Both the position numbers and the translations under genes were made by a program. A stretch of 64,000 bases of DNA from Stappia sp. TSB10P1A (GTDB lineage Bacteria > Pseudomonadota > Alphaproteobacteria > Rhizobiales > Stappiaceae): positions 55,129 to 119,128 of the forward strand of contig NZ_FYAU01000005.1 of assembly GCF_900185725.1 (NCBI RefSeq), read 5' to 3'. The notes below the pieces were generated by a model. That model did not search any database. It saw nothing but the letters and a program-made list of their open reading frames with translations, and had not been told where the DNA came from. Positions 34,815 through 51,251 of this stretch are shown here, piece by piece. The stretch's first letter is position 1; each line of letters begins with the position of its first letter.

Positions 34815-34826
34815 CTTGGTACCAAG
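34815..34826. promoter_or_regulatory. TTGGTACCAA element before the precursor operon
   Basis: The palindrome CTTGGTACCAAG lies 95 bp upstream of the candidate precursor gene, followed by a second GTACC 11 bases further on. The ten-base core recurs exactly at 50121-50130 and with one mismatch at 50339-50348, in front of the other genes of this cluster. Confidence 0.65.
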
Positions 34827-34920
34827 ATATCAATGTACCTCAATACAACTTTAAGGTATCCTTCCCTGGGTCCCGGCAACCCGGCCGCGACCGGATTTCA
34901 AGGAGGAAAAGGAGACCATT

Positions 34921-35124
34921 ATGTCTGCCAAGGTTTCGTCGGCTACCCATGACAAGCTCAAGGCGCATGTCGGCCCGATCCATGACGAGATCGGCAAGCT
35001 GACGCTTGAGATCGACCGCATCCGCAGCGAGCGTGCGATCCTTCAGGCCATGGCCGTCACCGAACTGGACGGCATGGGCCTGTCCAGGGACGCGGTCGGC
35101 AGCCTCGCCGCCGCCTGCTGGTAA
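34921..35124 (+). CDS. Candidate RiPP precursor / scaffold peptide ending in Ala-Cys-Trp
   Basis: 67 aa with an excellent ribosome-binding site (AAGGAGGAAAAGGAG). Residues 5-42 look like an amphipathic helical leader rich in Lys, Glu, Ile and Leu (EIGKLTLEIDRIRSERAIL). Residues 43-67 are a Gly/Ala/Leu-rich tail ending SLAAACW, with the only Cys and the only Trp of the peptide as its last two residues. It has no signal peptide. It is first in an operon with an ATP-grasp ligase and a protease-like protein, and faces three radical SAM genes. These traits fit a ribosomally made peptide modified at its C-terminus. The family is unknown to me, and no product can be predicted. Confidence 0.75.
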   Translation: MSAKVSSATHDKLKAHVGPIHDEIGKLTLEIDRIRSERAILQAMAVTELDGMGLSRDAVGSLAAACW

Positions 35125-35129
35125 GCTCC

Positions 35130-35156
35130 GGCGCAGGGCAGCCGCTGCCCTGCGCC
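35130..35156 (+). other. Perfect hairpin between precursor and ligase genes
   Basis: A perfect 12-bp GC-rich stem (35130-35141 with 35145-35156) with a CCG loop begins five bases after the precursor stop. There is no T-run, so it is not a standard terminator. It is placed to stabilise the precursor mRNA 3' end or limit read-through into the ligase gene, as expected when a peptide is needed in excess over its enzymes. Confidence 0.7.
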
Positions 35157-35176
35157 CCCGCTGCCCTGCGCCCCCG
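35145..35176 (+). repeat. Tandem 16-bp duplication
   Basis: The unit CTGCCCTGCGCCCCCG occurs twice in perfect tandem (35145-35160, 35161-35176). Each copy can pair with the same upstream arm (35130-35141), so two alternative hairpins are possible. Confidence 0.9.
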
Positions 35177-35192
35177 ACAGCGAGCCTTCTCG

Positions 35193-36467
35193 ATGACCAG
35201 ACATTTCTCAGAAGCGGGTCAGCGTCATATCGTCATTGTCGACCCGGTCGCCCACTTCTTCAACTACATCCCCGCCGCGCGCGACCTGGGCTACGGCGCC
35301 ATCGTTCTCAGTTCCAATCCTGATGTCTGCCGGGCCGAGGAGGCGGGTCACCGCCGCATGGACGACGCCTATGCCGCGAACAGCGCCCTCACGGCCTTTG
35401 TCCCTTACACCGCCGACGATCTCGACTCGGCCCTGTCCGCGCTGGCTCCCTGGCGCGGCGCCATCGCCGGTGTCATCGCCGGCGACGAGGTCACCGTGCC
35501 CGCCGCCGCCGCGCTGGGGCGTAGGCTCGGCTTCGACTATGCCCCTGCCGAGGATGCCGCCTGCCAGCAGATCAAGTCTCGCATGAAGCAGCGTCTCGTC
35601 GCCCGCGGGGTGCCCACGCCCCGCTTCGTCGTGGTCGAAACGCGCGAGGACGCCATCGCCGCCTGGCACGCCTTCGGCGGCGACTGCATGATGAAGATGG
35701 TCGACTACGCCATGAGTTACGGCATTTCCCGGGTCCGCTCGCCGGATGAGCTGAGCGAGGCCTGGGACCGCATCGCCGCCCGCCGCGCGGCGCTCGATCA
35801 TGACTTCGCCACGCAGAGCAGCGTGGTGATGGAGGAATTCGTCTCCGGCCGCGAATTCTCGGTCGAGGGCTACGAGCAGGATGGCCGTATCGAGGTGCTG
35901 AACTTCTGCGAGAAGCTCTCGCATGAGAATTTCATGGTGATCGGCCATTACGTCCCGGCCCGCACCAGCGCCGGCGAGGCCGAGGCGCTGCGCCGCATCG
36001 CCGCCGACTGCGTCCGCGCTCTCGGCATCCGCAACAGCGTCTTTCATGCCGAGGTGCACATGCGGGGCGATCAGCCCTTCCTGATCGAATGCGCTGCCCG
36101 GCCGCCGGGGCAATATTCGGTCGGGGTGATGAAACGGGTCTACGGATTCGAACTGATGCGCATCGCCCTGCAATTGGCCTGCGGTGAAAAGGTCACCGTG
36201 CGCGCCTGCCCGCCGCGCAAATGGAGCGCGATCATGGCGCTTTACTCCGACGAGACCGGCATCGTGCGCAGCACCCGGTCGCTGGACGAGTTGCGCGCGC
36301 GTCCCGAATGCTACGCGCTGAAATGCAGCGTCAAGGCAGGCGACGCCGTTCTCCGGCTGGAAACCTTCCGCGATGTGCTGGGCCTGGCGCTGCTGGAAGC
36401 GCCCGACCCCCAGGCGATCCGGGAGGTCTATGACTGGGCCCGCGCCTCGGTGCGCTTTCCGGTCTGA
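35193..36467 (+). CDS. ATP-grasp ligase of the peptide cluster
   Basis: 424 aa. The ATP-grasp fold is visible: QIKSRMKQRLVARGVPTPRF opens the ATP domain near residue 127, VVMEEFVSGREFSVEGY is the hinge/lid region, and FHAEVHMRGDQPFLIECAAR (near residue 285) supplies the Mg-ATP acidic residues. Such enzymes activate a carboxylate as acyl phosphate and join it to an amine or thiol. Here the substrate may be the C-terminus of the preceding peptide, as in peptide-elongating ATP-grasp ligases, or a free amino acid. The start has only a weak ribosome-binding site, consistent with lower expression than the precursor. The next gene follows after 13 bp. Confidence 0.87.
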   Translation: MTRHFSEAGQRHIVIVDPVAHFFNYIPAARDLGYGAIVLSSNPDVCRAEEAGHRRMDDAYAANSALTAFVPYTADDLDSALSALAPWRGAIAGVIAGDEVTVPAAAALGRRLGFDYAPAEDAACQQIKSRMKQRLVARGVPTPRFVVVETREDAIAAWHAFGGDCMMKMVDYAMSYGISRVRSPDELSEAWDRIAARRAALDHDFATQSSVVMEEFVSGREFSVEGYEQDGRIEVLNFCEKLSHENFMVIGHYVPARTSAGEAEALRRIAADCVRALGIRNSVFHAEVHMRGDQPFLIECAARPPGQYSVGVMKRVYGFELMRIALQLACGEKVTVRACPPRKWSAIMALYSDETGIVRSTRSLDELRARPECYALKCSVKAGDAVLRLETFRDVLGLALLEAPDPQAIREVYDWARASVRFPV

Positions 36468-36480
36468 TGGGGGAGGGACC

Positions 36481-38643
36481 ATGGACGCACTGACCCTGCT
36501 GCCCTGTCCGGATGGGCCTCGTTTCGCTGCCGCGGTGCGCGCCGCCGCGCTCGCCGGCGATCTGCACAGCATCCCGATCTCGGGCACGGCCCGCGACGCC
36601 CGGGCGCTGGCTGCGCTCTATCCCGACCTGCCGATCCGCATCGCGCCCGCCCCCCCGCCGTCCGCCCCTCCATTCGACAGCGCGTCTGGTCTGGCGGTCG
36701 ATCTGCTGAGCGACCTCTGGCAGATGGGCACGGCCGGAACCCTGGCGGTCGCCGATCCGGGGCCGGACAGCCTGCCCGCGCTGGCCTATGCGGTGCTGAC
36801 CGGCCGCCGGGTCGTCGCCCTGCCCGCGCCGCTGGACCCCTTCGCCGCCCTTTGCGGGTCGGGCACGGCCTTGATCGCAACCCCGGCCGAGGCACTGGAC
36901 AAGGCCTTCATCGCCCGCCTGCTCGACTGGCAAACCACCGACCCCGAGGCTCCCGACCGCCTTGGCCTGCTGACCGGACGCGACGCAGCGCAAACCGCAC
37001 GGATCGTCGCCCGTCTTCTGATCCTGCGCGCCTGCCACGCCGTCGGTCACGTGCTGCCCGCTCCCGCCGACAAGGGACCGTCCGAGTTCCTGCTGATCGG
37101 CGCGCATGGCAACGAGATGCATCTCGGCTACGGCGAGGAGGACGTGCTGTGCGGGCGCCGGCACGCCCTGCCGCCGCAGCCGGAGGGGCGTTTCGATTGC
37201 GGCCGCGCCTGCCAGATCGAGAACCGCCGCGCCGCGCAGTCGCTCGACGCCAACACCGTCCTGCTCATGAGCTGCGACGGCTTCACCCCCAGCCAGGGGC
37301 TTGCCCCGCGGGATTTCTCGGTCCTTTTCGGCCTGCTCGACGGGCGTCCGGCGGCGGTGCTGGCGCCGTTCAAGCACGTGCAGGCCAATGCGCCGCTGCT
37401 CACCCTCATCGAGGCGCTGGCGCGCAGCGCCGCGCCGCTGGGCGAAATCGCCCACACGCTCAACCGCATCGGCAACACGGGCATGCTGCCTGATCCGGCC
37501 TTCCTGGTGCTGGGCGATCCCGACCTGTGCACCGTGCCGCCGCTGGCGCGGGACACACAAGGGGCCGAGACCACCTCCACCCCGCGCGGCACCGTCCTGC
37601 GGATCACCCCCGCGCCGCAGGCGCATGCGGTGACGCTCCCGCTGCCCCGGCCTGCGGGCGACACGCCGCTGGCCGTGCTGCCGATGACCCCGGCCCTGCG
37701 CGCGTCCGGCCATTTCTTCGCCCTTGCGCCCACCCCCGGCGAGGGGATCGAGGTGACGGTCTTTCGCGACGGCGCGCTCGACCCCGGTCCGCTGGAGGTC
37801 GCCCTGGTGCCGGCCGCGCCGCTCGACAGCCGGGTGCTGGAAACCGGGCGCGGCGCCCTCTCGCGCCTGCGCCTCATTGCCCATGTCTTCGGGTCGTCCC
37901 CGGCGATGGACACGGCCGGCAAGGACATCGCCGACCTGATGCACCGGATCGCCGCCTTTCCCCGCCCGATCGAGCAGTTGGACGCACTGCCCCTGGCGCT
38001 GGCCGCGCCGGCGCTGATGCAGGCCCGCCTCGACGCGCTGCGCCGCGCCGCGGCGCTGCGGATTGCCGACCATCTGGGCGAGGCACGGGTGTGGATGTCG
38101 CAGGACCATGCCGCGCTCTACCCGGATCTGCGCCGGGCCGGGCCCGAGGGCGACGGCCCCTGCCCGCATTGCGGCACGCAGGCCTTTGCCTGGCGCTACC
38201 GCGACCTGGTGGCCGAGCATCCCGCGCGTGACGTGACGATCTGCCATCGCTGCGGCATCACCGCGGACCTGCCGCTCGCCGCCGCCTTGCGCGTCTCCAT
38301 GTCGACCCTGCCGGAAGTACGCGGGTCCGCTCTGGAGGTCTCCGTTCGCATCGACAACACCGGCCCGGAGGCCGCGGCGCTCTCGCTGTTCCTGCAGCTC
38401 AACGAATGGCGCAAACTGGGCGTCGGCGGCCTGACGGAGCCGGTCGAACTGTCGGTTTTGCCGGGCGAAACGCTGCAGCATGGCGTTGCGCTGACCCTGC
38501 CGCCGCAGATGCAGGACGATATCGTCTCATTGCAACTGTTCATGGTGGACGCAGGTCTCGGACTGCATTTCCTCAGTCAGAAGACCCTGCTGAACCTGAC
38601 CGCGCAGCCTGCCCGTCGCCGCGCGGTGGAAGCTGCGGAATGA
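36481..38643 (+). CDS. Caspase/gingipain-fold protease-like protein with zinc ribbon
   Basis: 720 aa, no named family recognised. Start ATG 36481 follows GGGAGGG. Residues ~170-350 have the pattern of the caspase-like clan CD: a strand ending in IGAHGNEMH (His209), a strand ending in LLMSCDG (Cys265) and a closing FLVLGDPDL near 342-349 reminiscent of gingipain (C25) and CHAT proteins. Residues 561-591 form a four-Cys zinc ribbon (CPHC, then CHRC). The C-terminal ~110 residues look like a beta-sandwich (LEVSVRIDNTGPEAAALSLF). In context a protease that cuts the leader from the peptide is the simplest role. This is inference from motifs; activity could be absent. Confidence 0.65.
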   Translation: MDALTLLPCPDGPRFAAAVRAAALAGDLHSIPISGTARDARALAALYPDLPIRIAPAPPPSAPPFDSASGLAVDLLSDLWQMGTAGTLAVADPGPDSLPALAYAVLTGRRVVALPAPLDPFAALCGSGTALIATPAEALDKAFIARLLDWQTTDPEAPDRLGLLTGRDAAQTARIVARLLILRACHAVGHVLPAPADKGPSEFLLIGAHGNEMHLGYGEEDVLCGRRHALPPQPEGRFDCGRACQIENRRAAQSLDANTVLLMSCDGFTPSQGLAPRDFSVLFGLLDGRPAAVLAPFKHVQANAPLLTLIEALARSAAPLGEIAHTLNRIGNTGMLPDPAFLVLGDPDLCTVPPLARDTQGAETTSTPRGTVLRITPAPQAHAVTLPLPRPAGDTPLAVLPMTPALRASGHFFALAPTPGEGIEVTVFRDGALDPGPLEVALVPAAPLDSRVLETGRGALSRLRLIAHVFGSSPAMDTAGKDIADLMHRIAAFPRPIEQLDALPLALAAPALMQARLDALRRAAALRIADHLGEARVWMSQDHAALYPDLRRAGPEGDGPCPHCGTQAFAWRYRDLVAEHPARDVTICHRCGITADLPLAAALRVSMSTLPEVRGSALEVSVRIDNTGPEAAALSLFLQLNEWRKLGVGGLTEPVELSVLPGETLQHGVALTLPPQMQDDIVSLQLFMVDAGLGLHFLSQKTLLNLTAQPARRRAVEAAE

Positions 38644-38654
38644 GGGGTAGGGCC

Positions 38655-38909
38655 TCATTCCTCCATGGTGTGGGCGTCGTCGGCATTCAGATCCAGATGG
38701 TAGACCTCGCGCATGGTGCGGATGAACTGCAAGGTCTCCTCGTTGAAGGCGGGCCGGTTCTCCAGGCTGTGCAGGATCATTCCCTCCAGCAGGTCGCTCA
38801 GACTGATCTCCTTGTGATAGGCAAGGGATTTCAGGACCTTGAGGATCCGCTTCTCGATGCGAACGCCCGTCTGAACTCTTTCCACGTGTTTACCCGACCT
38901 GGCCGCCAT
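38655..38909 (-). CDS. Small ribbon-helix-helix-like protein
   Basis: 84 aa from ATG 38909, which has AGAGGTG upstream; ATG 38933 has none. Residues ~12-50 (VQTGVRIEKRILKVLKSLAY, then SLSDLLEGMILHSL) fit a ribbon-helix-helix DNA-binding domain, and the acidic C-terminal tail is of unknown function. It lies 12 bp from the stop of the protease-like gene, between the two halves of the cluster. It is the only DNA-binding candidate inside it, so it may regulate the cluster. Its own promoter does not carry TTGGTACCAA. Confidence 0.6.
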   Translation of the reverse strand: MAARSGKHVERVQTGVRIEKRILKVLKSLAYHKEISLSDLLEGMILHSLENRPAFNEETLQFIRTMREVYHLDLNADDAHTMEE

Positions 38910-39179
38910 CTCGCACCTCTCTTCCGACAGCATGGTTCTACTGGGTAAAAGAGCACCGGGGCAACGTCAAATCGGGAAAGGCGCAGGCGGGACAACCGCT
39001 TGATGGAGGGGGAGCTTCCGGCGTGTACGCCGCCGTGTCCCATGATGGGTCCTGGATGATCCGAGAGGCATGGCGACCGTCCATACGCACGGGCTGGCGT
39101 CGCCTGTCATCGTCCGCGACGATCTCATCTGAGGAGCAGGGAGCCGTCGGGTGATCTCCCTGAAGGTCGGCAGCGGTCC

Positions 39180-40094
39180 TCAGCCGGGAGCCAGTGTCAG
39201 GAAGCGTCGGAACAGGCTGGCGACACGGTCGGGAAACTCCTCATGCGGCAGGTGGCCCGCCTCGGGCAGGATCACCGACCAGCAGTCGCCGAGCCGCGCC
39301 TGGATGCCCAGGGACTTGTTCACCGGCAGCACCTTGTCGCCGGCGCCCCAGACCGACAGCACCGGCTTGCGCAACTCCGGCAGCCGTGCCTGCAGATCCT
39401 TCTCGTGGAACTGTTTCAGCGTCTGCAGAAACGCATCTGCCGCCCCGGGCTCCAGCAATTGGCGATAATAGAAGTCCACCATCGCCTCATCGGGCATATG
39501 TGCCGTGTAGGAGGCGCGCATCTTCGACCGGAAGATGCGCGGCCCGATGCCCTCGCGCAGGATGGCGCTGCGCATGGCATGCCGCACCAGGCCGATCCGC
39601 GCCGCCCGTTCCACCGAATGGGTGCCCCCGGCGATGCCGACGCTGTTGATCAGCAGCAGCCGGTCCACCAGTTCAGGCGCGTTCAGCGCCAGCACCGTCG
39701 CCACCGCCGCGCCAAAGGAACTGCCCGCCACATGCAGCCGCGCCAGACCCAGGGCGGCGCAGAGCTCTGCCACCCTGGCGCTGGTCGCATCCAGGCTGTA
39801 GTCGCCGAACGCCTTGCCCGAGTGCCCGAACCCCGGCATGTCGATCGCCAGCACCCGGTGATCCCGCGCCAGGTCAAAGAACAGGTCCTGCCAGGTGGTC
39901 ATCGATAGCGGAATGCCGTGCAGGAACAGGATCGTCTGCGGTCCATCGCCCGCCAGCGCATAGCGGATCGGCCCGCCCGCCACCGTCTGCAGGCGGGCAA
40001 GGGGGCTCATGCGGTCTTCGAAGTCCAGCATGGTGAGGGGAACGGGCCGCGGCTCGTGGCCGGCAAGGGCGCGCGGTTTCATGGTCGTGGTCAT
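39180..40094 (-). CDS. Alpha/beta hydrolase
   Basis: 304 aa, last gene of the nine-gene - strand operon. Classical features: oxyanion loop LFLHGIPLS, nucleophile elbow HVAGSSFGAAVA (GxSxG), acid in SVWGAGDKVLPVN, and His in LPEAGHLPHEEF. It has no signal peptide. The start overlaps the upstream stop (ATGA at 40091-40094). It may hydrolyse an ester, thioester or amide formed on the peptide or an intermediate. It resembles the hydrolase half of the upstream fusion protein, but with an intact nucleophile. Confidence 0.85.
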   Translation of the reverse strand: MTTTMKPRALAGHEPRPVPLTMLDFEDRMSPLARLQTVAGGPIRYALAGDGPQTILFLHGIPLSMTTWQDLFFDLARDHRVLAIDMPGFGHSGKAFGDYSLDATSARVAELCAALGLARLHVAGSSFGAAVATVLALNAPELVDRLLLINSVGIAGGTHSVERAARIGLVRHAMRSAILREGIGPRIFRSKMRASYTAHMPDEAMVDFYYRQLLEPGAADAFLQTLKQFHEKDLQARLPELRKPVLSVWGAGDKVLPVNKSLGIQARLGDCWSVILPEAGHLPHEEFPDRVASLFRRFLTLAPG

Positions 40095-41833
40095 GCGCCC
40101 GCCCCCGCCAGCGCCGTCCGGGCGAAGACCGCCAGCAAGGCATTGTAGTCGTCTGCCCGCTCCCAGGTCAGGAAATGCCCGGCCTCGGGCAGAATGACCG
40201 GAGTGACGCCGCCGAGGGCCGCTGCCAGCGCCCGCGCGTGCTCCGGTCCGACCAGCCGGTCCTCGCCGCCATGGATGATCTGCACCGGGCAGGCGATCCC
40301 CGCCGGGTCGGCCAGCGGGACGAAGCGGTTCGCCACCAGCGTCTGGCGGCAGAATGCATCCGCATGCTGCTCGTTCACCCGGTAGAAGGTCTTCAGCTTG
40401 TACAGTTCGTCGGCGTTGCGGCTGCGATAGCCCGCGCCGAACAGCCAGTCGATGCTGTCGTCGAACACCGCCGCCATGCCCGACTGCCGCGCCAGCCGCC
40501 GCCAGCCCTCGGTCGTGTCGAGAATGACCTCGTCCGCCGCCAGATAGGCGGAACACAGGCTGATGCCGGCCACCCGCTCCGGCGCCATCAGCGCTGCCTG
40601 CAGGGCGATCAGCCCGCCCAGGGCGCAGCCCGCCAGCACCACGCGGTCGAGGTCCAGATGCGCCACCAGTTCCAGCACATCGGCGGCCATCGTCGCGCAG
40701 TCAGCACTCTCCGGCAGCGGGGAACTGCGCCCGATGCCGCGATTGTCCAGCGTGATCACCCGGAACTCTTCCGCCAGACGCGACGCCTGCCGGGCCCAGA
40801 AGCTGGTGTCGCCCCCCACCGGCCCGATCAGCAGCACGGGTGGCCCCTTGCCCTGGCTGCGGTAGCAGAGCGTGCCGCCGTCGCGCAGTTCCAGCGTCGC
40901 GGCGCGCACCTTGCGATAGAAATGGTCGAAGATGTTCACCACCAGCGAACTTTTGTCGTCGATTCCCTCGATCACGTCGGTCGGGTCATAGGCGGGCATG
41001 CCGCCATCGAGATAGACCGCTTCGTGCCGCCAGGTGCAGGGGTCGTATTGCAGCGTGTGAGGAATGACGCGCGGCTTGTGCCGCCCCAGTAGGATCAGCA
41101 CGATCTCGCTCGCCACCAGCGAGGCCGCGAGCACGCAGGCCGAGGCCAGCGACGGTCCCGATCCTTGCATGAAATCCGTGTTCGAGTTCTGCTTCGAGAC
41201 GTCGTAGTAGCTGATATGCGCCAGCTTCGGCACGAGGCCGCAGGCATAGCGCAACTGCTTCTCCATCGGCGGCTGCGCGTCGGAAATGCCGCAATAGGCC
41301 TCCATCGTCATGCCCGCCGGATCGAAGATCTGCAGGCAGGCGCTGAACCCCACGGGCGAGCCCATCAGGACGTAGAGCCCGCGCGCGCGGGCCGCACGGT
41401 GAAAGGTCAGGTGATCGTCGATCCGGTAGAAGTCGATGGCATCGATACAGATATCCACCCCGGCGAACGCCGCCTCGGCGATCTCCTCGGTGAAATAGTC
41501 GCGGAACAGCGTGACCCGCGCGTCCGGGTTGATGTCGAGGATCGCCTCGCGCAGCACTTCCACCTTGTCGCGTCCGTCGTTCGAGACGGTGGCGCCGAAC
41601 TGCCGGTTGATATTGGCAAGCTCGAACCTGTCGGGATCGACGATGTGGAACCCGCCCACGCCCATCCGTGCCAGCGTCGACAGGCAGTTGGAGCCGATCC
41701 CGCCCGCGCCGACCACCAGCACCGTCGCCCGCGCCAGCGCCGCCTGTTCCGCCTCCGTCAGGATGCCGATGTTGCGCTTGAAGGAGTCGGCATAGACCGA
41801 TCCGGCGCCCTGAAGTGGATTGCCGTCATGCAT
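40091..41833 (-). CDS. ThiF/MoeB-type E1 adenylyltransferase fused to an alpha/beta hydrolase
   Basis: 580 aa from ATG 41833 (AAGGAGG upstream). Residues ~15-280 are an E1-like domain: ATP loop VVGAGGIGSN (41-50), then DPDRFELANINRQ (66-78) with the acidic and Arg residues of ThiF/MoeB. It should adenylate a C-terminal carboxylate. Residues ~330-580 are an alpha/beta hydrolase, with oxyanion region LLIGPVGGD, acid IHGGEDRL and His EAGHFLTWE. The nucleophile elbow reads AGCALGG, with Ala where Ser should be, so this half may bind rather than cleave. E1 fused to a hydrolase is unusual. It sits in a chain of overlapping genes. Confidence 0.88.
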   Translation of the reverse strand: MHDGNPLQGAGSVYADSFKRNIGILTEAEQAALARATVLVVGAGGIGSNCLSTLARMGVGGFHIVDPDRFELANINRQFGATVSNDGRDKVEVLREAILDINPDARVTLFRDYFTEEIAEAAFAGVDICIDAIDFYRIDDHLTFHRAARARGLYVLMGSPVGFSACLQIFDPAGMTMEAYCGISDAQPPMEKQLRYACGLVPKLAHISYYDVSKQNSNTDFMQGSGPSLASACVLAASLVASEIVLILLGRHKPRVIPHTLQYDPCTWRHEAVYLDGGMPAYDPTDVIEGIDDKSSLVVNIFDHFYRKVRAATLELRDGGTLCYRSQGKGPPVLLIGPVGGDTSFWARQASRLAEEFRVITLDNRGIGRSSPLPESADCATMAADVLELVAHLDLDRVVLAGCALGGLIALQAALMAPERVAGISLCSAYLAADEVILDTTEGWRRLARQSGMAAVFDDSIDWLFGAGYRSRNADELYKLKTFYRVNEQHADAFCRQTLVANRFVPLADPAGIACPVQIIHGGEDRLVGPEHARALAAALGGVTPVILPEAGHFLTWERADDYNALLAVFARTALAGAGA

Positions 41834-43698: not shown

Positions 43699-43699
43699 G

Positions 43700-44986
43700 T
43701 CAGTAGGAGGCCTCGGCACGGTTTGCATCGTCGATCTTGGGCTCGGGGTTGCGAAGGGCAGGGCGGCGCTGCACGGTGCGCACCGGCCGCACGCCGTCCG
43801 CCGCCAGGGCCTGCTCGTCGACCACCAGCGTCTGCCCCTGGAATTTCAGCGGCGCGCCGATCCAGCGCGTTTCCGCCTCCAGATGCTGCCAGTCGCGGGT
43901 CATGATGGTTTCCAGCCCGGCGATGCTCTTCACGTCGCCTTTCCACTCCTGCGAGGTGTTGTAGAAGGCGTCGTCATGGCAGGCCTTCACGCAGGCAAGA
44001 CACTCGATGCACTGGTCGGGGCGCACCGACACCGCCGGCCCTTTCGCCAGCCGCGCCAGCACGCCCTTCGGACAGACATAGATGCAGTCGTAGCAGGAGG
44101 TGCATTTCACCGGATCGATGATCGGCTCGAAATGGCTGCGATAGTCGCCCTTCTTCAGCCAGCGCTTCGGCGTGGTCTTGTAGATCGTCGAACTGCCGCA
44201 GCCGTCGAGCGAGATCAGCAGCACGATGGCCGTGAGCGTCGCGGCCCACAGTCCGACCTCTTCCGCCGGCATCCGCGTGTACCATGCCACGCCCGCCAGC
44301 CCGGCCAGCGACACACCCAGATGCGTCAGCGTCTTCGCCCAGCGGCGCTCTTCGGGGAGAATGTCCCAGAAGGCGAACCAGGTCAGGTGCAGCAGGAAGA
44401 TCAACCCCATCGAGATCAGCGCATACTGCGGATAGAAGAAGGCCACCGGGAACAGCGTCATGCAGTAGACCAGCGCCGTCGACAGCGCCTGTTCCATCCG
44501 GTCGAGAAAGCCGAACTGCGCCAGCGTCATCGGCTCGGAGCGGCGGTAGTTGGCGCGGATATAGGCGGGAAGGTCGTCGAGATGCGTCGGCCCCCAGGCC
44601 AGCTTGAACCCCGTCTGCCGCGTCACTTCCTCCGCGTCGATGCCGGGCGCGGCATAGGGCGGCGCGATGATCCGCCGCCCGGCCACCACGTCCTTCAGCC
44701 CGGTGACGTTGATCGCGTCGATCACGTCATATTCGTTGTATTCGTTCATTCCGGCGGCGCACCAGACGTTCGAGCCCTTGGAATTCGCCACCAGCAGGTA
44801 GCAGTCGAAGGGGGCGAGCACCTTCATCAGCCGGTGCACCGTCAGCGTGTAGTTGCCGCTCAGGAACACCGGGCTGTTGGCATCGGGATTGCCGATGCGG
44901 CGCAGTCCCAGCGCGCAGGGAAAGTTGAAATGCCGGAAGAAGACGTGGAACGTCTCGTAGAGCTTGGTCGTGATCCACTCAAACAT
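43700..44986 (-). CDS. HgcA-HgcB-like fusion: corrinoid domain, four TM helices, two 4Fe-4S clusters
   Basis: 428 aa. Residues ~35-150 match the corrinoid-binding domain of HgcA, including the cap-helix motif NVWCAAGM (73-80; HgcA has NVWCAAGK, where Cys ligates cobalt), the GNYTLTVHRL strand and GFKLAWGPTHLDDLPAYI. Residues ~165-262 form four transmembrane helices. Residues 295-336 hold two HgcB-like ferredoxin motifs: C295, C298, C301, C305 and C326, C329, C332, C336. HgcA methylates Hg(II) with methylcobalamin and HgcB reduces the cobalt; here both parts are in one chain. Neighbouring genes point to methyl transfer onto a metal(loid) or organic acceptor rather than proven mercury methylation. 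It overlaps the methyltransferase gene by eight bases. Confidence 0.85.
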   Translation of the reverse strand: MFEWITTKLYETFHVFFRHFNFPCALGLRRIGNPDANSPVFLSGNYTLTVHRLMKVLAPFDCYLLVANSKGSNVWCAAGMNEYNEYDVIDAINVTGLKDVVAGRRIIAPPYAAPGIDAEEVTRQTGFKLAWGPTHLDDLPAYIRANYRRSEPMTLAQFGFLDRMEQALSTALVYCMTLFPVAFFYPQYALISMGLIFLLHLTWFAFWDILPEERRWAKTLTHLGVSLAGLAGVAWYTRMPAEEVGLWAATLTAIVLLISLDGCGSSTIYKTTPKRWLKKGDYRSHFEPIIDPVKCTSCYDCIYVCPKGVLARLAKGPAVSVRPDQCIECLACVKACHDDAFYNTSQEWKGDVKSIAGLETIMTRDWQHLEAETRWIGAPLKFQGQTLVVDEQALAADGVRPVRTVQRRPALRNPEPKIDDANRAEASY

Positions 44987-45641
44987 GGCGCTTCACACCT
45001 TCTATCAACTGGAAGGTGGACATGGGCCAGGTCTTCTTCTCGGTGATCTCGAAGCCCGCCGCCTCGATGACGCCCTTGAGGTCCTTCACCGGAAAGAACG
45101 CCCGCCGCAGGATGGCGAATTGCGGTACCCACATCAGCGTCATGACCACCCGGAACAGCACCCGCGAGACCCTGCCCTCGGGCCAGACCTCGTCGGCGAT
45201 CAGCATCTTGCCGCCCGGTTTCAGGATCTCGTGGCATTCGCGGAAGATGTGTTCGAGGTAGGGCTTCGACAGTTCCCCCACCACCATGGTGGAGACGATC
45301 ACATCCAGGCTGCTCGGCGCGAAATGCTTCTTCAGGTTGGTGACGCTGTCCTTGATGATGGTGAAGCGGTCCTCGCGCCCTGCCTTGGCGATGTTGCGGC
45401 GGCACTCCTTCAGCATGCTTTCGGAAATGTCCATGCCGGTCACGGTCGCGCCGTGCTCGATACATTTCAGCCCCAGCGAGCCGGTGCCGCAGCCGATGTC
45501 CAGCACCTGGTCGCCCTGCTTCATGCGGCTGGCGATGGTGTTCTTGATCCGGTCGATCTTGCCGCCGGTCAGCAGCTTGACCGAGACGTCGTAGCGCTCC
45601 GGTGCGTATTCGACCCACACCATCCAACTGTACATCAGCAT
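44979..45641 (-). CDS. Class I SAM-dependent methyltransferase
   Basis: 220 aa with an excellent AAGGAGG before ATG 45641. Motif I is VLDIGCGTGSLGLKCIEHG (near residue 46), followed by acidic motif II (GMDISESML) and motif IV (LDVIVSTMVVGELS). It resembles UbiE/Coq5-type or arsenite-methyltransferase-like enzymes in fold only; the AS3MT cysteine pattern is not apparent. Overlap with the HgcAB-like gene suggests the two act together, for example by methylating the corrinoid or the same substrate. Confidence 0.87.
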   Translation of the reverse strand: MLMYSWMVWVEYAPERYDVSVKLLTGGKIDRIKNTIASRMKQGDQVLDIGCGTGSLGLKCIEHGATVTGMDISESMLKECRRNIAKAGREDRFTIIKDSVTNLKKHFAPSSLDVIVSTMVVGELSKPYLEHIFRECHEILKPGGKMLIADEVWPEGRVSRVLFRVVMTLMWVPQFAILRRAFFPVKDLKGVIEAAGFEITEKKTWPMSTFQLIEGVKRHV

Positions 45642-45712
45642 CGTGACCTCCTTCCGTCGCGTGCCGGAACGTCGGCCCGCCGCCTGTGCAGGCGATGGGC
45701 CAGGGGTCGGGA

Positions 45713-47149
45713 TCAGGCGCGCGCCATCGCGTCCGTGCGCTCCTCGCGATAGCCCGCGATCTCGCGTTCCAGGTTCTCGGATGTCGGGAAATGCGCCCGG
45801 TCCAGCACCGGGTAGAAGTGCAGGACGGCCCCTTTCGGCAGCGTCACCCGCACGCCGGTCTCCTCGTCGGTCTGCCGCGAGGCGATGATCCGCCGCAGCA
45901 CGCCGCCGGTGGCAAAGCTCTGCACCGGCACCGCGTCCGTGCCGATCCGCTCCAGTTGCAGCGCGCAGACGGTCTGCGCGTCATGCGTCACCTCGATATG
46001 GACGGAGTTCGCCTCCGCGTTCCACAGGAAGTCCCTGCTGTAATGCGTGTCGGGCGAGGTGGGCAGCGCGATCTCCGCAGCGCGCCCCTTGAGCGCCTGC
46101 CGCACGTCGTTCGGCGTGCCGCACTGGGTGCAGCATCCGGCCTCGTCCAGCGCCACCGCTTCGGCTTTCAGCCCGTAGCGGCGCACGGTGCGCGTGCCGC
46201 AGCCCGGACAATGGGTGTCCGACACGCCATCGCGGAACATGTTGCCGCAATAGACGTAGCGAATGCCCGCCTCCATCGCCATCTCCCGCGCCTTCAGCAC
46301 GATCGCCTCCGGCGTGCGTGTCACGCTGGTGTAGAGATAGGCCGGGTGGAAGGCGACGTAGTGCAACGGCACCCGGTCGCCCACATGTTCCAGCACCCAG
46401 GTATTGGTCTTGGCGATCTCCTCCTCGGTGTCGTTGCGCCCGGTGATCAGCAACTGGCTCAGTTCCAGATGCCGCCCCGAGCGATGCACCTTGCGGATCA
46501 TGTCGAGCACCGGCTGCAGATGCGTGCCGCCGGTGAACTTGCGATAGAACTTCTCATCCATCGACTTCAGCGAGATGCTGAAGATGTCGATACAGTCGAT
46601 CAGCTCGTCCACCGCGCCGGATTCGATGTAGAACGCCGACTTGTAGAGGGTGACGATCCCCGCCGACTGGGCAAGCCGCGACGTTTCCACCACGAATTCG
46701 TGCCAGACCACCGGATCGTTGTAGGTCCAGGAAATGACCTCGATCCCCAGCATCTCGCAGGTGGCGACGATCTGTTCGGGCGTGTAGCGGCGCACATCCG
46801 CCTGATCGAGGTGGCGCACCTGGGATGTTCGCCAGTTCTGGCAGAAATCGCAGGACATCATGCAGCCGATATTCCCGAGCGACAGGATCTTCGCTCCGGG
46901 GCGGAAGTGGTTCACCGCCTCGGTCTCGATGTATTCCATCGTCGCCTCGACCGACTTGCCGTAGTTGAAGGTGTACAGCTCGCCGCCGATATTGCCGCGC
47001 ACGCCGCAGCGCCCCATCTGCCCGTCCGCGATCTTGCAGTGGCGCGGGCTGAGGTTGCACACCACCATCGAACTGCCGTTGCCGGCCTTCTCCCAATGGG
47101 TGGCGGGATAGGCGTCCCGCATCCAGGACACGTCTTGATCGATTTTCAT
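45713..47149 (-). CDS. AmrS-like radical SAM protein (AmmeMemoRadiSam family)
   Basis: 478 aa from ATG 47149 (GGAGG upstream; the frame is open beyond but not coding). The radical SAM cluster is C96-x3-C100-x2-C103 (GCMMSCDFCQNW). The N-terminal Cys set (C31, C38, C48 in CNLSPRHCKIADGQMGRCGV) is typical of AmrS/PflA-like proteins. A zinc-ribbon-like part (CPGCG and CCTQCG) and a C-terminal domain of about 110 aa are extras. The usual AMMECR1 and Memo partners are absent here. Its reaction is unknown; it may modify the peptide or activate another enzyme by glycyl-radical or methyl chemistry. Confidence 0.87.
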   Translation of the reverse strand: MKIDQDVSWMRDAYPATHWEKAGNGSSMVVCNLSPRHCKIADGQMGRCGVRGNIGGELYTFNYGKSVEATMEYIETEAVNHFRPGAKILSLGNIGCMMSCDFCQNWRTSQVRHLDQADVRRYTPEQIVATCEMLGIEVISWTYNDPVVWHEFVVETSRLAQSAGIVTLYKSAFYIESGAVDELIDCIDIFSISLKSMDEKFYRKFTGGTHLQPVLDMIRKVHRSGRHLELSQLLITGRNDTEEEIAKTNTWVLEHVGDRVPLHYVAFHPAYLYTSVTRTPEAIVLKAREMAMEAGIRYVYCGNMFRDGVSDTHCPGCGTRTVRRYGLKAEAVALDEAGCCTQCGTPNDVRQALKGRAAEIALPTSPDTHYSRDFLWNAEANSVHIEVTHDAQTVCALQLERIGTDAVPVQSFATGGVLRRIIASRQTDEETGVRVTLPKGAVLHFYPVLDRAHFPTSENLEREIAGYREERTDAMARA

Positions 47150-47187
47150 GGCGGCCTCCGAAGCGAAGCGATGGAAAAGCGAAAGGA

Positions 47188-48495
47188 TCAGTCGAGGATC
47201 AGTTCCGACAGGCCGAACTTGACCTCTCCCGGCTTGGCGGGGGCGAGGTCCTCCTCGACATAGAAGCGTTCCCAGACAGCGTTCGAATACAGTTGCCCCT
47301 TGCGGGTCAGCCGCACCTCCTCGCCGTCGTCGGTCAGGTAGCCCTCGGCCTGGAGCGCCCGCAGCACGTCGCCATAGACCAGGTCCATGGGCACGCCGAA
47401 CCGCGCCTGGAAATCGGTCTTGAAGACGTTGCCCACCTTCAGCCCGCGGATCATCACCCGGCGCATCTCCTGCTCCTTGCTCAGATGCGTCGAGAAGTCG
47501 AGGATCGGCTCTCCGGCGTTGATCCGGTCGATATACTGTCGGATGTTGGTGATGTTTGTGTACATGAACTGATGGATTGCCGATTTCGACGATACGCCGA
47601 AGCCGATCATCGGCCATGTTCGCCAGTAATAATCAAGGAAGCGGCAGTAATGATCCGCCCGCGCCGGGTGGTAATAGCCCGAGGTGCTGCCGGTGACGTA
47701 GCCCGCCTGCTCCAGCAGGTCGAAGGCCCGCACCGCCATTGCCTTCTCTTCCTCGATCAGCGGCAGCTTCTGCCCCTTCTTGAGGATCCAGTTGTGGTAG
47801 GCGGTGTTCTCCCAGACCTCCAGCGGATAAACCGTGATGCAGGACATCTCCAGGTCGATGGCGCGGGTGACGGAGTCTTCCCAGATCTCGGGCGTCAGTC
47901 CGATCAGGGGATAGATCAGGTCGACATTGACATGGGTGAAGCCCGACTTGCGGATCGCCGTCACCGCGCGGTCGATATCGTGCAGGTCGTGCGGCCGGTT
48001 GGTCTGCCGCAGGATGCCCTCGTCGAAGCTCTGGATCCCGATCGAGAACCGGTTGAAGCCAGCATCGAACAGCGCGTCGATCTTGTCCTGGTCGACGCTG
48101 CGCGGATCGAATTCCACCGCGACCTCGGCGCCGGCGGCCACCTCGAACGTGTCGCGACAGGCCTGAAGGATGCGGATCAACTGGTCCGCCGTCAGCAGTC
48201 CCGGCGTGCCGCCGCCGAAATAGATCGCCTCGATGCGGAACCTCGGGAACACCGGGTTGGCCGGAAACGCCTCGATCTCCTTGATCAGCGCCTCGACATA
48301 GGCCTCGCGCAGATCGTCCTTCGAGTTCACCATCACGGTGTAGTCGCAGAAGTGGCATTTCGTCGAACAGAACGGGATATGGATGTAGATCGACGCGTCC
48401 TGCTTGCGAAAGAAATTGCCGAAATCCGTGTAGGTGTAGTTGAACGGATAGGTGTGGATGTTGCGGCGGATGTATTTGTCCTGCTGGATGTTCAT
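47188..48495 (-). CDS. HemN/HemW-like radical SAM protein
   Basis: 435 aa. Radical SAM motif C43-x3-C47-x2-C50 (CSTKCHFCDY), then YFGGGTPGLL and the SIGIQSFDEGILRQTNRPHD segment of the HemN superfamily, with a C-terminal HemN_C-like domain. In secondary-metabolite clusters HemN-like proteins are usually class C methylases or cyclopropanases (two SAM molecules), or HemW-like heme chaperones, rather than coproporphyrinogen oxidase. The genes around it favour a tailoring role. It is 61 bp after the SPASM gene on the same strand. Confidence 0.88.
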   Translation of the reverse strand: MNIQQDKYIRRNIHTYPFNYTYTDFGNFFRKQDASIYIHIPFCSTKCHFCDYTVMVNSKDDLREAYVEALIKEIEAFPANPVFPRFRIEAIYFGGGTPGLLTADQLIRILQACRDTFEVAAGAEVAVEFDPRSVDQDKIDALFDAGFNRFSIGIQSFDEGILRQTNRPHDLHDIDRAVTAIRKSGFTHVNVDLIYPLIGLTPEIWEDSVTRAIDLEMSCITVYPLEVWENTAYHNWILKKGQKLPLIEEEKAMAVRAFDLLEQAGYVTGSTSGYYHPARADHYCRFLDYYWRTWPMIGFGVSSKSAIHQFMYTNITNIRQYIDRINAGEPILDFSTHLSKEQEMRRVMIRGLKVGNVFKTDFQARFGVPMDLVYGDVLRALQAEGYLTDDGEEVRLTRKGQLYSNAVWERFYVEEDLAPAKPGEVKFGLSELILD

Positions 48496-48556
48496 GTGAA
48501 TTTTCCTGTCAGGCTGTTCCGGGTCTGGATGAGCGGGGCGTGCCAGGTCGGCGGCG

Positions 48557-50068
48557 TCAGGTCAGCGGTGTCAGGCACTGCAGGCCGGGGGGCGCGGGTC
48601 GATGCGCCGCGCGTCCGGTCTTCAGCGTCGGGCGTCCGCAGGAAACGAAAAGGTCGCTGAGCACGGACCTGTCTCGCCCGCGCAACTCCGGCCCGGCGCG
48701 CCCGATGGTCTCGATGGCGGCGTCGACCAGGCGGAACTGGAAGCGGCAACTGCGCGGATCCGGGCGGTTCATGTCGCCGCTGCGGACGAAATTCTCCTGC
48801 TTGCAGCCGCCGCTGCACAGGTAGCGGATCGCGCAGTCCGCACACACCGGCGTGTCGTTGATCGAGGTCCGCCACCGCTCGGTCGTCGCCGCGTCGACGC
48901 CTTCGGAGAAGCTGCCGCTGCGAAAATCGACCTCGCCCACCAGCCGGTGACAGGGCATCACGGACTGGTCCGGCGAAAAGGTGAAATACTTGCGTCCGCC
49001 GGAGCAATGTCCGTTCGCCACCTCTCCCAGCAGGATCATGCGGATGATCGTCTCGATCTCCAGCACGCCCTTGAAGCGGTTGTCGTCCGAGAACAGCGTC
49101 AGATAGGCCTGCGCGAGGTCGCGGTATTCCGCGTCGATCTTGTCGTCGCACAGCGCGTCGATCTCGTCCCGGCCGCGGCCGGCGAACGTGTCCGCGAACA
49201 CCGGCTTGAGAAAGCTGTCGCCGACCACGGCGGGCAGGATCTGGAACCAGTCGAAGACGTTCTCGCCGTGCAGTTCCCGTACATCCGCGACGAGCGAGGA
49301 ACCGGGGAACGGCACATAGGTCATGCGTGCCACCAGCGTGATGGCCTCGGACCGCTGGCGCACGCGGCGACAGTTGGCGATGATCTGCTCGAAGGAGCCA
49401 CGCCCGGCCAGGTTCGGACGGTTGCGGTCATGCGTCGCCGCGCCGCCGTCGATGGACACCGACACGGTGAAGCCGAAGCGCTCGAACAGGCTCAGTTCCC
49501 GCTCGCTCAGCCGTGTCGTCAGATTGGTCGAGATGCGGTAGTGAAAGCGGATGCCGCTGTCTGCGGCCAGCGCGAGTGAGCGCTCGCACAGCGTCTCGAT
49601 GGCGTCGAAGTTCATCATCGGCTCGCCGCCGAAGAACTCCAGCCGCACCGCGTCCCCGGCGCCGGCATTCTCCGCGATGAAGCTCAGGATCGCATCCAGA
49701 TCCGTGTCGGTATTCAGCTTTCCCTTGATCCGCCCGTAGTCGCCCCCTTCCGCGAAGCAGTATGTGCACCCCAGATTGCAGACCGACGTCAGGTTGATGT
49801 TCAGAGCCAGGTTCGCGCCATCCAGCGGCGAGGCGCGCTCCAACCGATCCCGGTTGAGCGACGTCAGATGGCCCGCCGTCCGCAACTGCTCCAGATCCCT
49901 GGCGACCCGCTCCGCCAGCCCGGGGGAAAGCACCTCGGGGTCCCTGCGGTCTTCCGGGGGCGTCCCTTTTATTTCATAGAGTTGGTGCGTTTCCGCATGC
50001 AGGATCCAGGCTTTTGCCGCCGCCTGGACGATGTGGAAATCCGGTGTGTCTGGGCGTTGGTCACGCAT
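48557..50068 (-). CDS. Radical SAM/SPASM peptide maturase
   Basis: 503 aa, first gene of the - strand operon. The N-terminal ~85 residues (FHIVQAAAKAWILHAETHQL) resemble the leader-recognition or tg-x-x-h region found before many peptide maturases. The radical SAM cluster is C97-x3-C101-x2-C104 (VCNLGCTYCFAEGG). The C-terminal SPASM domain for auxiliary clusters is Cys-rich (MPCHRLVG, then CADCAIRYLCSGGCKQENF). SPASM maturases install thioether, carbon-carbon or epimer modifications on ribosomal peptides. The nearby 67-aa peptide with terminal Cys-Trp is the obvious substrate. The C-terminal ~60 residues are a poorly conserved tail. Confidence 0.9.
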   Translation of the reverse strand: MRDQRPDTPDFHIVQAAAKAWILHAETHQLYEIKGTPPEDRRDPEVLSPGLAERVARDLEQLRTAGHLTSLNRDRLERASPLDGANLALNINLTSVCNLGCTYCFAEGGDYGRIKGKLNTDTDLDAILSFIAENAGAGDAVRLEFFGGEPMMNFDAIETLCERSLALAADSGIRFHYRISTNLTTRLSERELSLFERFGFTVSVSIDGGAATHDRNRPNLAGRGSFEQIIANCRRVRQRSEAITLVARMTYVPFPGSSLVADVRELHGENVFDWFQILPAVVGDSFLKPVFADTFAGRGRDEIDALCDDKIDAEYRDLAQAYLTLFSDDNRFKGVLEIETIIRMILLGEVANGHCSGGRKYFTFSPDQSVMPCHRLVGEVDFRSGSFSEGVDAATTERWRTSINDTPVCADCAIRYLCSGGCKQENFVRSGDMNRPDPRSCRFQFRLVDAAIETIGRAGPELRGRDRSVLSDLFVSCGRPTLKTGRAAHRPAPPGLQCLTPLT

Positions 50069-50120
50069 CCGTTTCTCGCTCCGCGTCGAACTACGGTTAA
50101 CACCTCTTAATATCGGTACT

Positions 50121-50130
50121 TTGGTACCAA
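50121..50130. promoter_or_regulatory. TTGGTACCAA element before the maturase operon
   Basis: Exact copy of the ten-base palindrome found at 34816-34825, lying 53 bp upstream of the SPASM maturase start, with a further GTAC at 50117 (read on the - strand as GGTACCAAAGTACC). Confidence 0.65.
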
Positions 50131-50338
50131 GCTCAGTGCAAGCACAATCTTTGGGCGAGTTAACCTATGGTAAAACAATCTTAGCGAGTTTTTACGAGGC
50201 GGCGGGAGGGCCTGCCCCGACTGGGAATTTCGGCTGCTGACGGCAAGTGCAGGGCCGGCCACGCCAAATCGCGAAACCCGGCACAGCGTCGACGCGTGGC
50301 GACATGCAATTCGGCTTGAAGTTTGAATATCTCGGAGT

Positions 50339-50348
50339 TAGGTACCAA
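50339..50348. promoter_or_regulatory. TTGGTACCAA-like element before the EamA gene
   Basis: TAGGTACCAA differs at one position from the two exact copies and is followed by ATACC and CTACC half sites. It lies 34 bp before GTG 50382 and supports that codon as the real start, because an earlier start would place the element inside the gene. Confidence 0.55.
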
Positions 50349-50381
50349 TATACCAAACTACCAAAAGCCGAAAGAAGCTCC

Positions 50382-51251
50382 GTGTCGATCCGCGCTCTCT
50401 CCTCCTCCGGCGTCTCCTGGGCGCTGCTTGCCGCCCTGCTCTACACTCTTGCCGCCGCTGCGGCGAAGGTGCTGGTGGGTGACTTCCACGTTCTCGAGAT
50501 CCTGTTCTTCCGGCAGATCGTCGTGCTGCTGTCGACCCTGCCCGAGATGCGGCGCAGCTTTCCGCAAGCGCTTTACACCAGTCGTCCCGGCCTGCATGCC
50601 ATCCGCCTGGTCGGCGCCTTTCTCGCGCTGTCCTGCGGCATCTGGGCCGTGGCCGTGCTGCCGCTCGCCACGGCGACGACCCTCGGCTTCTCGCAGGTCT
50701 TCTTCGTCGCGCTGCTGGCCCGGTTTTTTCTCGGCGAAACTGTCGGGCCGAAAACGTTTGCCGCCATCGCGCTGGGCTTTGCCGGCGTGCTGGTCGTCAT
50801 GCGTCCCGGCGGGGAGGGCCTGTCGCTGCTCCATGCCGCGATCCCGCTCCTCGGCGGCGTCGGCGGTGCCATGGCGGTGATCAGCGTGCGCCGGCTGGCG
50901 CAGACCGAGAGCACCGCCACACTGCTGCTCTACCAGTCGCTGTTTGTCGGGCTGCTCAGCGGCCTGCCGCTGGTCGTCCTCTGGGTGACGCCCGACCTGC
51001 CGCAACTGCTTCTGCTGTTCGGCATCGGCATTCTCGCGACGCTTGGCCAGTGGTGCGGCGTTCAGGCGCTGCGTCTCGCCGAGGCCAGCGTCGTCGGCAC
51101 CCTGGACTATATCAAGCTCGTCTATGCCGAACTGCTGGGCATGCTGGCCTTCGACGAGCGCTCCGATCGGCAGACGGTCTTCGGCGCGGCGCTGATCGTG
51201 CTCGCGGCCTATGCCACGGTGCGCCTGCGCCCGCGCCCGCGCGGTCGCTGA
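50382..51251 (+). CDS. EamA/DMT-family transporter, candidate product exporter
   Basis: 289 aa from GTG 50382 (GAAAGAAG upstream), the usual size for a ten-helix DMT transporter. Two EamA repeats are visible: the first ends GFAGVLVVMRPGGEGL, the second ends LGMLAFDERSDRQTVFGAAL. The frame is open back to 50247, but that part crosses the regulatory element. By position and shared element it probably exports the product of the peptide cluster, though EamA proteins carry many small metabolites. Confidence 0.85.
   Translation: MSIRALSSSGVSWALLAALLYTLAAAAAKVLVGDFHVLEILFFRQIVVLLSTLPEMRRSFPQALYTSRPGLHAIRLVGAFLALSCGIWAVAVLPLATATTLGFSQVFFVALLARFFLGETVGPKTFAAIALGFAGVLVVMRPGGEGLSLLHAAIPLLGGVGGAMAVISVRRLAQTESTATLLLYQSLFVGLLSGLPLVVLWVTPDLPQLLLLFGIGILATLGQWCGVQALRLAEASVVGTLDYIKLVYAELLGMLAFDERSDRQTVFGAALIVLAAYATVRLRPRPRGR

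Follow-up and report, generated by a model that had tools for sequence, protein, structure and literature searches.

A small peptide gene and a convergent operon of radical SAM and corrinoid enzyme genes were found to co-occur across distant bacterial phyla, and we consider it likely (at a probability of about 0.58) that together they build a small sulphur-containing product on the C-terminal Cys-Trp of the peptide, with the methyltransferase CpaM and an HgcAB-like protein as the predicted methyl supply. The genes are located in the window, the whole 64,000-nucleotide stretch of Stappia sp. TSB10P1A DNA that was analysed. The best reading of their sequences is that they represent a ribosomal-peptide pathway of a new kind, one that includes a module for corrinoid-based methyl transfer.

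Analyses of other genomes indicated a link between the peptide and the enzyme operon. Seven genomes from three phyla had the SPASM, HemN, AmrS, CpaM and HgcAB-like genes, and a peptide homologue was clear in five of these, doubtful in one and not found in one (Telmatospirillum). The peptide was therefore not absent from most operon genomes, an outcome that the earlier note on this DNA had named as refuting its proposal of a peptide-based pathway. Among the 20 HgcAB-like loci without the SPASM and HemN pair, eight of which are truncated by contig ends, no peptide homologue was seen. The peptide and the SPASM enzyme were confined to the same two of 87 family genomes, and in 385 class genomes the HgcAB-like gene and the peptide were each found once, both in the window's own genome. 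Chance-like peptide matches (E 0.05 to 0.92) were left out of these counts. The peptide search covered all 297 Acidobacteriota genomes, and for the 19 Acidobacteriota HgcAB-like matches the neighbourhoods covered were those of seven and of G473, with 11 under the cut-off left out. The pattern sought for a RiPP, linkage of a small peptide gene with maturases in several genomes, was thus observed, and four lines of evidence supported the peptide-based pathway: the co-occurrence, the gene neighbourhood, the invariance of the C-terminal Cys and an element common to the promoters. This gene set was not found among the matches listed from the full-text literature (in a collection covering neither preprints nor most subscription papers), and where HgcA and "ribosomally synthesized" occurred within one text, the two stood in separate contexts.

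Every gene named in the earlier note was present at the locus. The peptide gene (34921 to 35124, + strand), which has a strong ribosome-binding site and encodes a 67-residue precursor or carrier peptide of a small-peptide family ending in -LAAACW, is preceded at 34815 to 34826 by the palindrome CTTGGTACCAAG (no strand). Its 11-base form, TTGGTACCAAG, has only two sites in the 5.13-Mb genome, this one and a second copy at 50121 to 50131 (no strand), between the SPASM gene and the gene of an EamA-family transporter. Each copy lies upstream of one of the two units, the peptide unit and the enzyme operon, and this element common to the two promoter regions was an addition to the earlier gene list. 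So was a small RHH-like protein, a candidate regulator with weak RHH matches only (38655 to 38933, - strand), whose homologues adjoin the cluster in six of the seven operon genomes. The tight overlap described for the - strand operon was true of its last five junctions (8, 29, 8, 8 and 4 nt), whereas at the first three the genes lie 61, 38 and 71 nt apart. The transporter (50247 to 51251, + strand; EamA 1.2e-21), the true start of which is probably later than 50247, is a candidate exporter with a homologue adjoining the cluster in loci L001 and L002. A plasmid origin was considered and rejected, the HgcAB-like protein being without a match in a plasmid collection, as was a genomic island: the GC content of the cluster (0.63-0.69, compared with 0.61-0.69 for the window) was not distinctive and a tRNA gene was absent.

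At the C-terminus of the peptide, Cys66 was kept in all 12 peptides of alignment A4 and the terminal Trp in 11. This alignment was made without the window's own peptide (P0001), P0003 (near-identical to the L049 copy), P0004 (which diverges in a frameshift-like manner after about residue 36) and the doubtful Bradyrhizobium homologue, whose end carries neither residue; with the last included, the C-terminal Cys was present in 12/13 and the Trp in 11/13. The Chloroflexi copy ends in Cys, not Trp, and its operon includes a protein whose nearest PDB relatives are flavoprotein decarboxylases including EpiD and MrsD, the peptide cysteine decarboxylases; it also resembles CoaBC (NCBIfam 1.4e-27, below the family cut-off). 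The invariance of Cys66, together with this Cys end beside a relative of the peptide cysteine decarboxylases, makes it likely that the enzymes act at the C-terminal Cys(-Trp). A scan of 15 window proteins gave no member of the Flavoprotein family. A cysteine-decarboxylase motif scan flagged no loci even though L005 holds the flavoprotein and, as it missed this known case, the scan does not show such a relative to be absent elsewhere. Conservation of the terminal residues, which do not vary, favours a product resembling a cofactor or metabolite over an antibiotic that diversifies.

Three radical SAM enzymes are encoded at the start of the operon. The SPASM peptide maturase (48557 to 50068, - strand; PDB 5wgg, 6.1e-32) scored best with PapB (175 bits, cut-off 340), followed by Nif11 (169, cut-off 519), QhpD (156, cut-off 453) and SCIFF (142, cut-off 425), and none of the RiPP class models reached its cut-off among the matches listed. 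By sequence it appears closest to the thioether-forming PapB/SCIFF/QhpD group. The HemN/HutW-like enzyme (47188 to 48495, - strand) had HutW as its best match (224 bits, cut-off 400). The AmrS-like enzyme (45713 to 47149, - strand) exceeded the cut-off of the AmmeMemoRadiSam radical SAM model TIGR04337 (295.8 bits, cut-off 220). The AmmeMemoRadiSam system has Memo and AMMECR1 as partner genes; neither appeared in the scan of 15 window proteins. The arrangement resembles that of mycofactocin (MftA-MftF), in which a SPASM enzyme acts on the C-terminal Val-Tyr dipeptide of a small ribosomal peptide and a peptidase effects release (PMC7491314). It differs in the Cys-Trp end, two extra radical SAM enzymes, the corrinoid module, the E1-like protein and the ATP-grasp ligase, and none of the best 25 families listed for each of the 15 window proteins was an Mft family.

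The remaining enzymes offered candidates for activation and release. A 720-residue protein of unknown family (36481 to 38643, + strand), a candidate peptidase, tracked the -CW peptides exactly among the genomes tested. Its description as protease-like proved weaker than stated: the His/Cys pair H209 and C265, invariant in 4/4 homologues, is the sole support, and sequence searches found no significant relative in Pfam or the PDB. A protease fold was rejected as an assignment: neither those searches nor an AlphaFold model built from four sequences yielded usable evidence, and the model (pLDDT 57) was too poor for any fold to be assigned. Four invariant Cys in the protein possibly form a zinc ribbon. 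The E1-hydrolase fusion (40091 to 41833, - strand) did have ThiF (1.7e-41) and Abhydrolase_1 (3.2e-26) domains, but its hydrolase half has Ala403 in place of the nucleophile Ser, with Ala at this position in all six loci compared, so that the hydrolase label was also too strong. The separate alpha/beta hydrolase (39180 to 40094, - strand; Abhydrolase_1 6.6e-26) kept its Ser, Asp and His in 6/6 loci. Between the fusion and the corrinoid genes are a GNAT acyltransferase (41826 to 42605, - strand; Acetyltransf_1 21.6 bits, cut-off 20.7) and a DUF2817 relative of the AstE/AspA metallo-deacylases (42598 to 43728, - strand; DUF2817 1.7e-56, AstE_AspA 1.4e-5), the His/Glu motif of which was kept in 4/4 proteins compared.

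Some of these genes could also fit an unlikely alternative, that the peptide is a reusable, LysW- or pearlin-like carrier to whose C-terminal carboxylate the ATP-grasp enzyme adds an amino acid, which the operon modifies and a metallopeptidase cuts off, the Cys-Trp being a recognition end. The ATP-grasp ligase (35193 to 36467, + strand; ATP-grasp_4 2.3e-19, LAL_C2 1.9e-11) is of the L-amino-acid-ligase type, adjoins the peptide gene and was present within the retrieved loci of 5/7 operon genomes. In two other lineages M20 metallopeptidases take the place that DUF2817 has here, and there are described examples both of carrier peptides and of amino-group carrier proteins (PMC9303977). However, the retrieved L002 and L005 loci had no ATP-grasp gene, a peptide aminoacyl-tRNA ligase was absent from the 15 window proteins scanned, and the cysteine-decarboxylase relative beside a Cys-ending peptide points to work on the encoded Cys. 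The pearlins (3-thiaglutamate, 3-thiahomoleucine and ammosamide) are similar in that a small product is built on the C-terminus of a carrier peptide, with Cys and Trp among the residues used, and then cut off (PMC9303977). In that case a PEARL appends the amino acid, whereas the peptide gene here itself encodes Cys and Trp, and the scan of 15 window proteins revealed no PEARL (LanB-like) ligase.

It is less probable still that the peptide stays unmodified and assists the enzymes as a small partner or chaperone, and that the operon makes its product from small molecules. The CpaM/HgcAB-like pair was found mostly without the peptide, and in G472 even the SPASM and HemN operon occurs without a detected one; the peptide also looks mostly helical, as far as can be predicted. 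A mere partner would be at odds with the conserved C-terminal Cys(-Trp), the membership of the SPASM enzyme in a maturase family and the decarboxylase relative in the Chloroflexi operon.

The HgcAB-like fusion (43700 to 44986, - strand) comprises a corrinoid domain, membrane helices and two 4Fe-4S motifs, and exceeded the cut-off of NF043039, the model for such fusions (337.4 bits, cut-off 285). It shares with the mercury methylase HgcAB the corrinoid domain with a cap-helix Cys, the membrane domain and the dicluster ferredoxin, with both Fe-S motifs kept, and the nearest structure to its model was the HgcAB model 9a0b. It differs in being one fused chain, in having CpaM as its partner, in lacking the HgcB Cys tail and in having four predicted membrane helices compared with the five reported for HgcA (PMC7305189). 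Cys76, in the motif N-V-W-C-A, corresponds to the HgcA-type cap-helix cobalt ligand and was invariant in 30/30 aligned proteins; cobalt coordination by this residue is predicted. We claim no distance between Cys76 and the D-x-C-G-S motif ahead of the ferredoxin part, as the pLDDT of the model fell below 50 nearby (residues 77-80 and 264-268). Among the paralogues with which HgcAB trees have been rooted are fused HgcAB proteins from Pyrococcus, Kosmotoga and other organisms (PMC7438021).

CpaM (44979 to 45641, - strand), a corrinoid-protein-associated SAM methyltransferase, scored above the cut-off of NF043040 (247.3 bits, cut-off 180) and has a corrinoid-protein neighbour. It was adjacent or fused to the HgcAB-like gene in 24/27 loci, a count that excludes 14 loci with the ferredoxin part only (L014-L027). 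Because a curated CpaM family is coupled to the HgcAB-like protein in this way, methylation of the product is plausible, although any substrate proposed for the pair here is a guess, as it mostly occurs without the peptide alongside. The cobalamin of HgcAB is methylated with SAM as donor (PMC11588087), and the extra cysteines of HgcB are reported as necessary for mercury methylation. The equivalents of HgcB Cys73 and the C-terminal Cys pair were missing, as the window protein has no Cys past residue 336. Based on this absence and on scores below the HgcA (141.1 bits, cut-off 275) and HgcB (34.5, cut-off 99) cut-offs, an acceptor other than mercury is likely, and the metal-linked product suggested in the earlier note was not supported. 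A role in metal handling, with a metal or metalloid methylated by the HgcAB-like protein and bound or exported by the peptide, is very improbable: the cap-helix Cys and the D-x-C-G-S motif (30/30 in alignment A1) would suit it, but those cut-offs were missed, 26/30 aligned proteins lacked any Cys beyond the final one of the ferredoxin part (the other four having one or two in other places), and metal-resistance families were absent among the 15 proteins scanned.

For the favoured pathway on the peptide's Cys-Trp end, we infer every chemical step, the step order, the product and indeed the modification of the peptide. The SPASM enzyme would act on Cys66-Trp67 using the helical leader as a handle, and the HemN-like and AmrS-like enzymes may introduce additional C-H changes. 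With SAM as donor, CpaM would methylate the Co(I) corrinoid of the HgcA-like domain, the cobalt would be held in its reduced state by the fused ferredoxin, and Cys76 beneath the cobalt may, in the fashion of HgcA, render the methyl group transferable to a thiol, radical or other acceptor on the peptide. The ATP-grasp, GNAT and E1-like proteins could serve in activation or group addition, the metallopeptidase (DUF2817 or M20), together with the 720-residue protein in -CW lineages, would free the modified end, and the EamA protein would export the product. More tentatively, the cluster may make a ribosomal natural product of a new class: three radical SAM enzymes would convert the encoded Cys-Trp to a small compound, helped by organocobalt methyl transfer in which the donor is an HgcAB-family protein loaded by its own SAM methyltransferase.

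A direct test is feasible because CpaM-HgcAB fusions exist and Breoghania sp. L-A4 has a compact cluster in a complete genome. To our knowledge, the natural methyl acceptor of HgcAB-type proteins is unsettled. If our reading is correct, a class of peptide pathway found in three phyla would be added and the HgcAB superfamily would gain a testable non-mercury substrate. On the more tentative reading of a new natural-product class, relatives of the mercury methylase would methylate a biological acceptor, and mercury methylation would be a side branch of the family.

Reading-frame analysis of the window bore out the gene calls that the earlier note had made for the cluster. The unit on the + strand (the 67-aa peptide at 34921-35124, an ATP-grasp enzyme and a 720-aa protein at 36481-38643) and the operon on the - strand (39180-50068) are convergent, with an RHH-like gene (38655-38933, -) between them. 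Family scans, which took in 15 window proteins, matched the ATP-grasp enzyme to ATP-grasp_4 and LAL_C2, the E1-like fusion protein to ThiF and abhydrolase, and the GNAT and DUF2817 proteins to the families of those names. The HgcAB-like, CpaM and AmrS proteins exceeded the cut-offs of NF043039 (337.4 bits versus 285), NF043040 (247.3 versus 180) and TIGR04337 (295.8 versus 220), respectively, and the HemN-like and SPASM enzymes fell below the cut-offs of all specific families listed in the scans. Immediately 5' of the peptide gene is an Acg-family FMN-binding nitroreductase-like gene (33508-34683; NF047509, above cut-off).

Analyses of the distribution of these genes indicated that the peptide and the operon belong together. 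GTDB contigs were scanned with two sequence patterns, of limited reach, from the HgcAB-like alignment, which gave 13 real HgcAB-like loci (L001-L013). SPASM, HemN-like, AmrS, CpaM and HgcAB-like genes were found together in seven genomes (those of L001-L005, Breoghania locus L030 and the window), five of which had clear peptide homologues: the window's source genome (5.13 Mb), Breoghania sp. L-A4 of the same family (G002), MedPE-SWcel (G471), the Acidobacteria MAG of L003 (G473), with two tandem copies, and a Chloroflexi genome (G475). The operon is present in Telmatospirillum (G472), in which a genome search found no peptide, and the Bradyrhizobium peptide (G474) is doubtful (E 6.8e-7; C-terminal end without Cys or Trp). 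At 1551-3481 of Bradyrhizobium locus L048, on a different contig from the operon, this doubtful relative lies under an exact CTTGGTACCAAG that starts 84 nt 5' of its ATG; next come genes for an Asp/Glu-racemase-family protein and a methyltransferase. In G473 the peptides and operon are on separate contigs, the peptides adjoining the 720-aa gene, an ATP-grasp gene and two RHH-like genes. A sister assembly probably carries, on one contig, the same two peptides (P0126 and P0128) and an HgcAB-like protein (P0079) with 99% identity to the L003 one, given that all three show a longest contig of 536,506 bases. SPASM (E <= 1e-40) and peptide matches were in the same two genomes among the family's 87, and in 385 class genomes (at most 15 peptide candidates per genome being scored) the HgcAB-like protein and the peptide each occurred once, both times in the window's own genome. 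Among 297 Acidobacteriota genomes, G473 alone had a strong peptide match; a second (E 9.7e-4) was within a 439-aa frame.

The control set comprised 20 HgcAB-like loci without the SPASM and HemN pair (L006-L013, L074-L080, L093-L097), three of which (L009-L011) have a SPASM enzyme and no HemN. The peptide was found at none of the 20, searched genome-wide for 14 (L006-L010, L012, L013, L074-L080) and within the locus for six (L011, L093-L097). In eight (L075-L079, L094, L096, L097) a contig end is <=2.2 kb from the HgcAB-like gene and could have concealed the operon. The comparison of five of seven operon genomes with 0/20 controls gave a Fisher p of 2.6e-4, and a stricter control (nine loci with >=4.4 kb on either side and a genome-wide search) gave 0.0048, both values ignoring kinship and using a profile built from these same peptides.

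Repeating the protein search with eight peptides as queries gave 13 proteins (E <= 0.1). Across the 12 peptides aligned, C66, H21 and E48 are invariant, and a terminal Trp and a T-H-D close to the N terminus are each present in 11. The sole member without Trp, the Chloroflexi peptide, ends in Cys, and its operon encodes a 400-aa Flavoprotein-domain protein (1.6e-18) between AmrS and SPASM. The nearest PDB matches of this protein were 7cfu (1.6e-18) and 6jls (2.3e-18), followed by EpiD (1.6e-16 and 1.2e-15), MrsD (1.6e-13) and CoaBC (4.8e-11); of the NCBIfam families, all below cut-off, CoaBC (1.4e-27) and CoaC ranked first, and the peptide-cysteine decarboxylase CypD scored 5.5e-6. EpiD and MrsD act on the C-terminal Cys of precursor peptides. 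The presence of this protein beside a Cys-ending peptide is the strongest indication that the reaction takes place at the C-terminal Cys. The 720-aa protein was present in G002, G471 and G473 and not found in G472, G474, G475, G476 and G482; among these eight genomes and the window's, its carriers are exactly those with a -CW peptide. H209 and C265 are invariant in its four sequences, our one basis for considering it a candidate peptidase.

The DUF2817 metal motif was kept in 4/4 sequences; in L003 and L004 an M20 peptidase frame occupies the DUF2817 position next to GNAT. In the E1 fusion, the nucleotide loop and N-I-N-R-Q motif of the E1 half were kept, and the abhydrolase half has lost its nucleophile (6/6). 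The DUF2817 or M20 peptidase and the E1 fusion would provide the release and activation steps. A single frame at L003 10686-12203, the first half of an M20 peptidase and then an aquaporin-like (MIP) half, is either a fusion or an assembly artefact.

CpaM adjoins or is fused to the HgcAB-like gene at 24 of 27 loci, the exceptions being L077 (contig end), L080 (another methyltransferase frame alongside) and L097. Both are in a single frame in L005, L095, L096 and, by its Pfam list, protein match P0053. The open frames of L095 (9298-10917) and L096 (9400-11028), joining CpaM and an HgcA-like protein, are from two Chloroflexota genomes with no SPASM or HemN nearby; as domain fusions, they link the methyltransferase with the corrinoid protein. 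Cap-helix Cys76 and both ferredoxin motifs are invariant in 30/30 HgcAB-like proteins, as is a D-x-C-G-S (residues 261-265 of the window protein, 43700-44986) where the last predicted membrane helix ends. This motif may supply a second thiol close to the corrinoid, in a region where the model is unsure. The model (pLDDT 83) best matched HgcAB model 9a0b, then corrinoid iron-sulphur proteins. One study describes methylation of purified HgcAB by SAM (PMC11588087). The HgcAB-like protein did not classify as HgcA or HgcB, and we take it to be a methyl-corrinoid donor for an acceptor other than mercury.

The CpaM/HgcAB-like pair, as it was mostly found without the peptide, is a portable module, alone at some loci and with other genes at the following ones. 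At L010, IorAB-like genes (scanned) are upstream of the pair and a 1301-aa protein with a Nif11/PapB-like SPASM enzyme (11120-15025) comes after it; similar-looking frames were seen in L009 and L011, and a genome-wide search for L010 found no peptide. In a Desulfobacteraceae MAG (L013, 1268-17755), the pair and AmrS adjoin genes for PALP and OCD-family enzymes, a dapdiamide-synthase-like ATP-grasp, an MFS exporter and NRPS condensation/adenylation proteins, possibly a second natural-product context, perhaps with diaminopropionate by SbnA/SbnB logic. In the tree, one supported group (99/98) unites the seven operon rows and those of L006 and L013; the operon label taken alone needs two changes.

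A genome-wide search located TTGGTACCAAG at two sites only, 34816, 5' of the peptide gene, and 50121, between SPASM and the EamA transporter gene (50247-51251, +). Allowing <=1 mismatch, the window has four matches (both strands of one palindrome counting as two) versus 0.19 expected, a number reached in 0/100 shuffles. Related GGTACC elements are 5' of SPASM in L001 and 5' of the peptide in locus L049, the nearest Breoghania element has three mismatches, and no such element was seen near the peptide in L005. The RHH-like gene, which adjoins the cluster in six of seven operon genomes (the L005 locus is without it), is a candidate regulator.

Together, these data indicated that the peptide-based gene set is real and recurring, and it was not found described in the full-text literature searches made. 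The cluster works like the systems for mycofactocin and pearlins, its product likely being formed at the peptide end, but falls outside both by their defining tests, and we file it among ribosomal-peptide pathways. Corrinoid methyl transfer is the least certain step and is what would make the pathway unusual.
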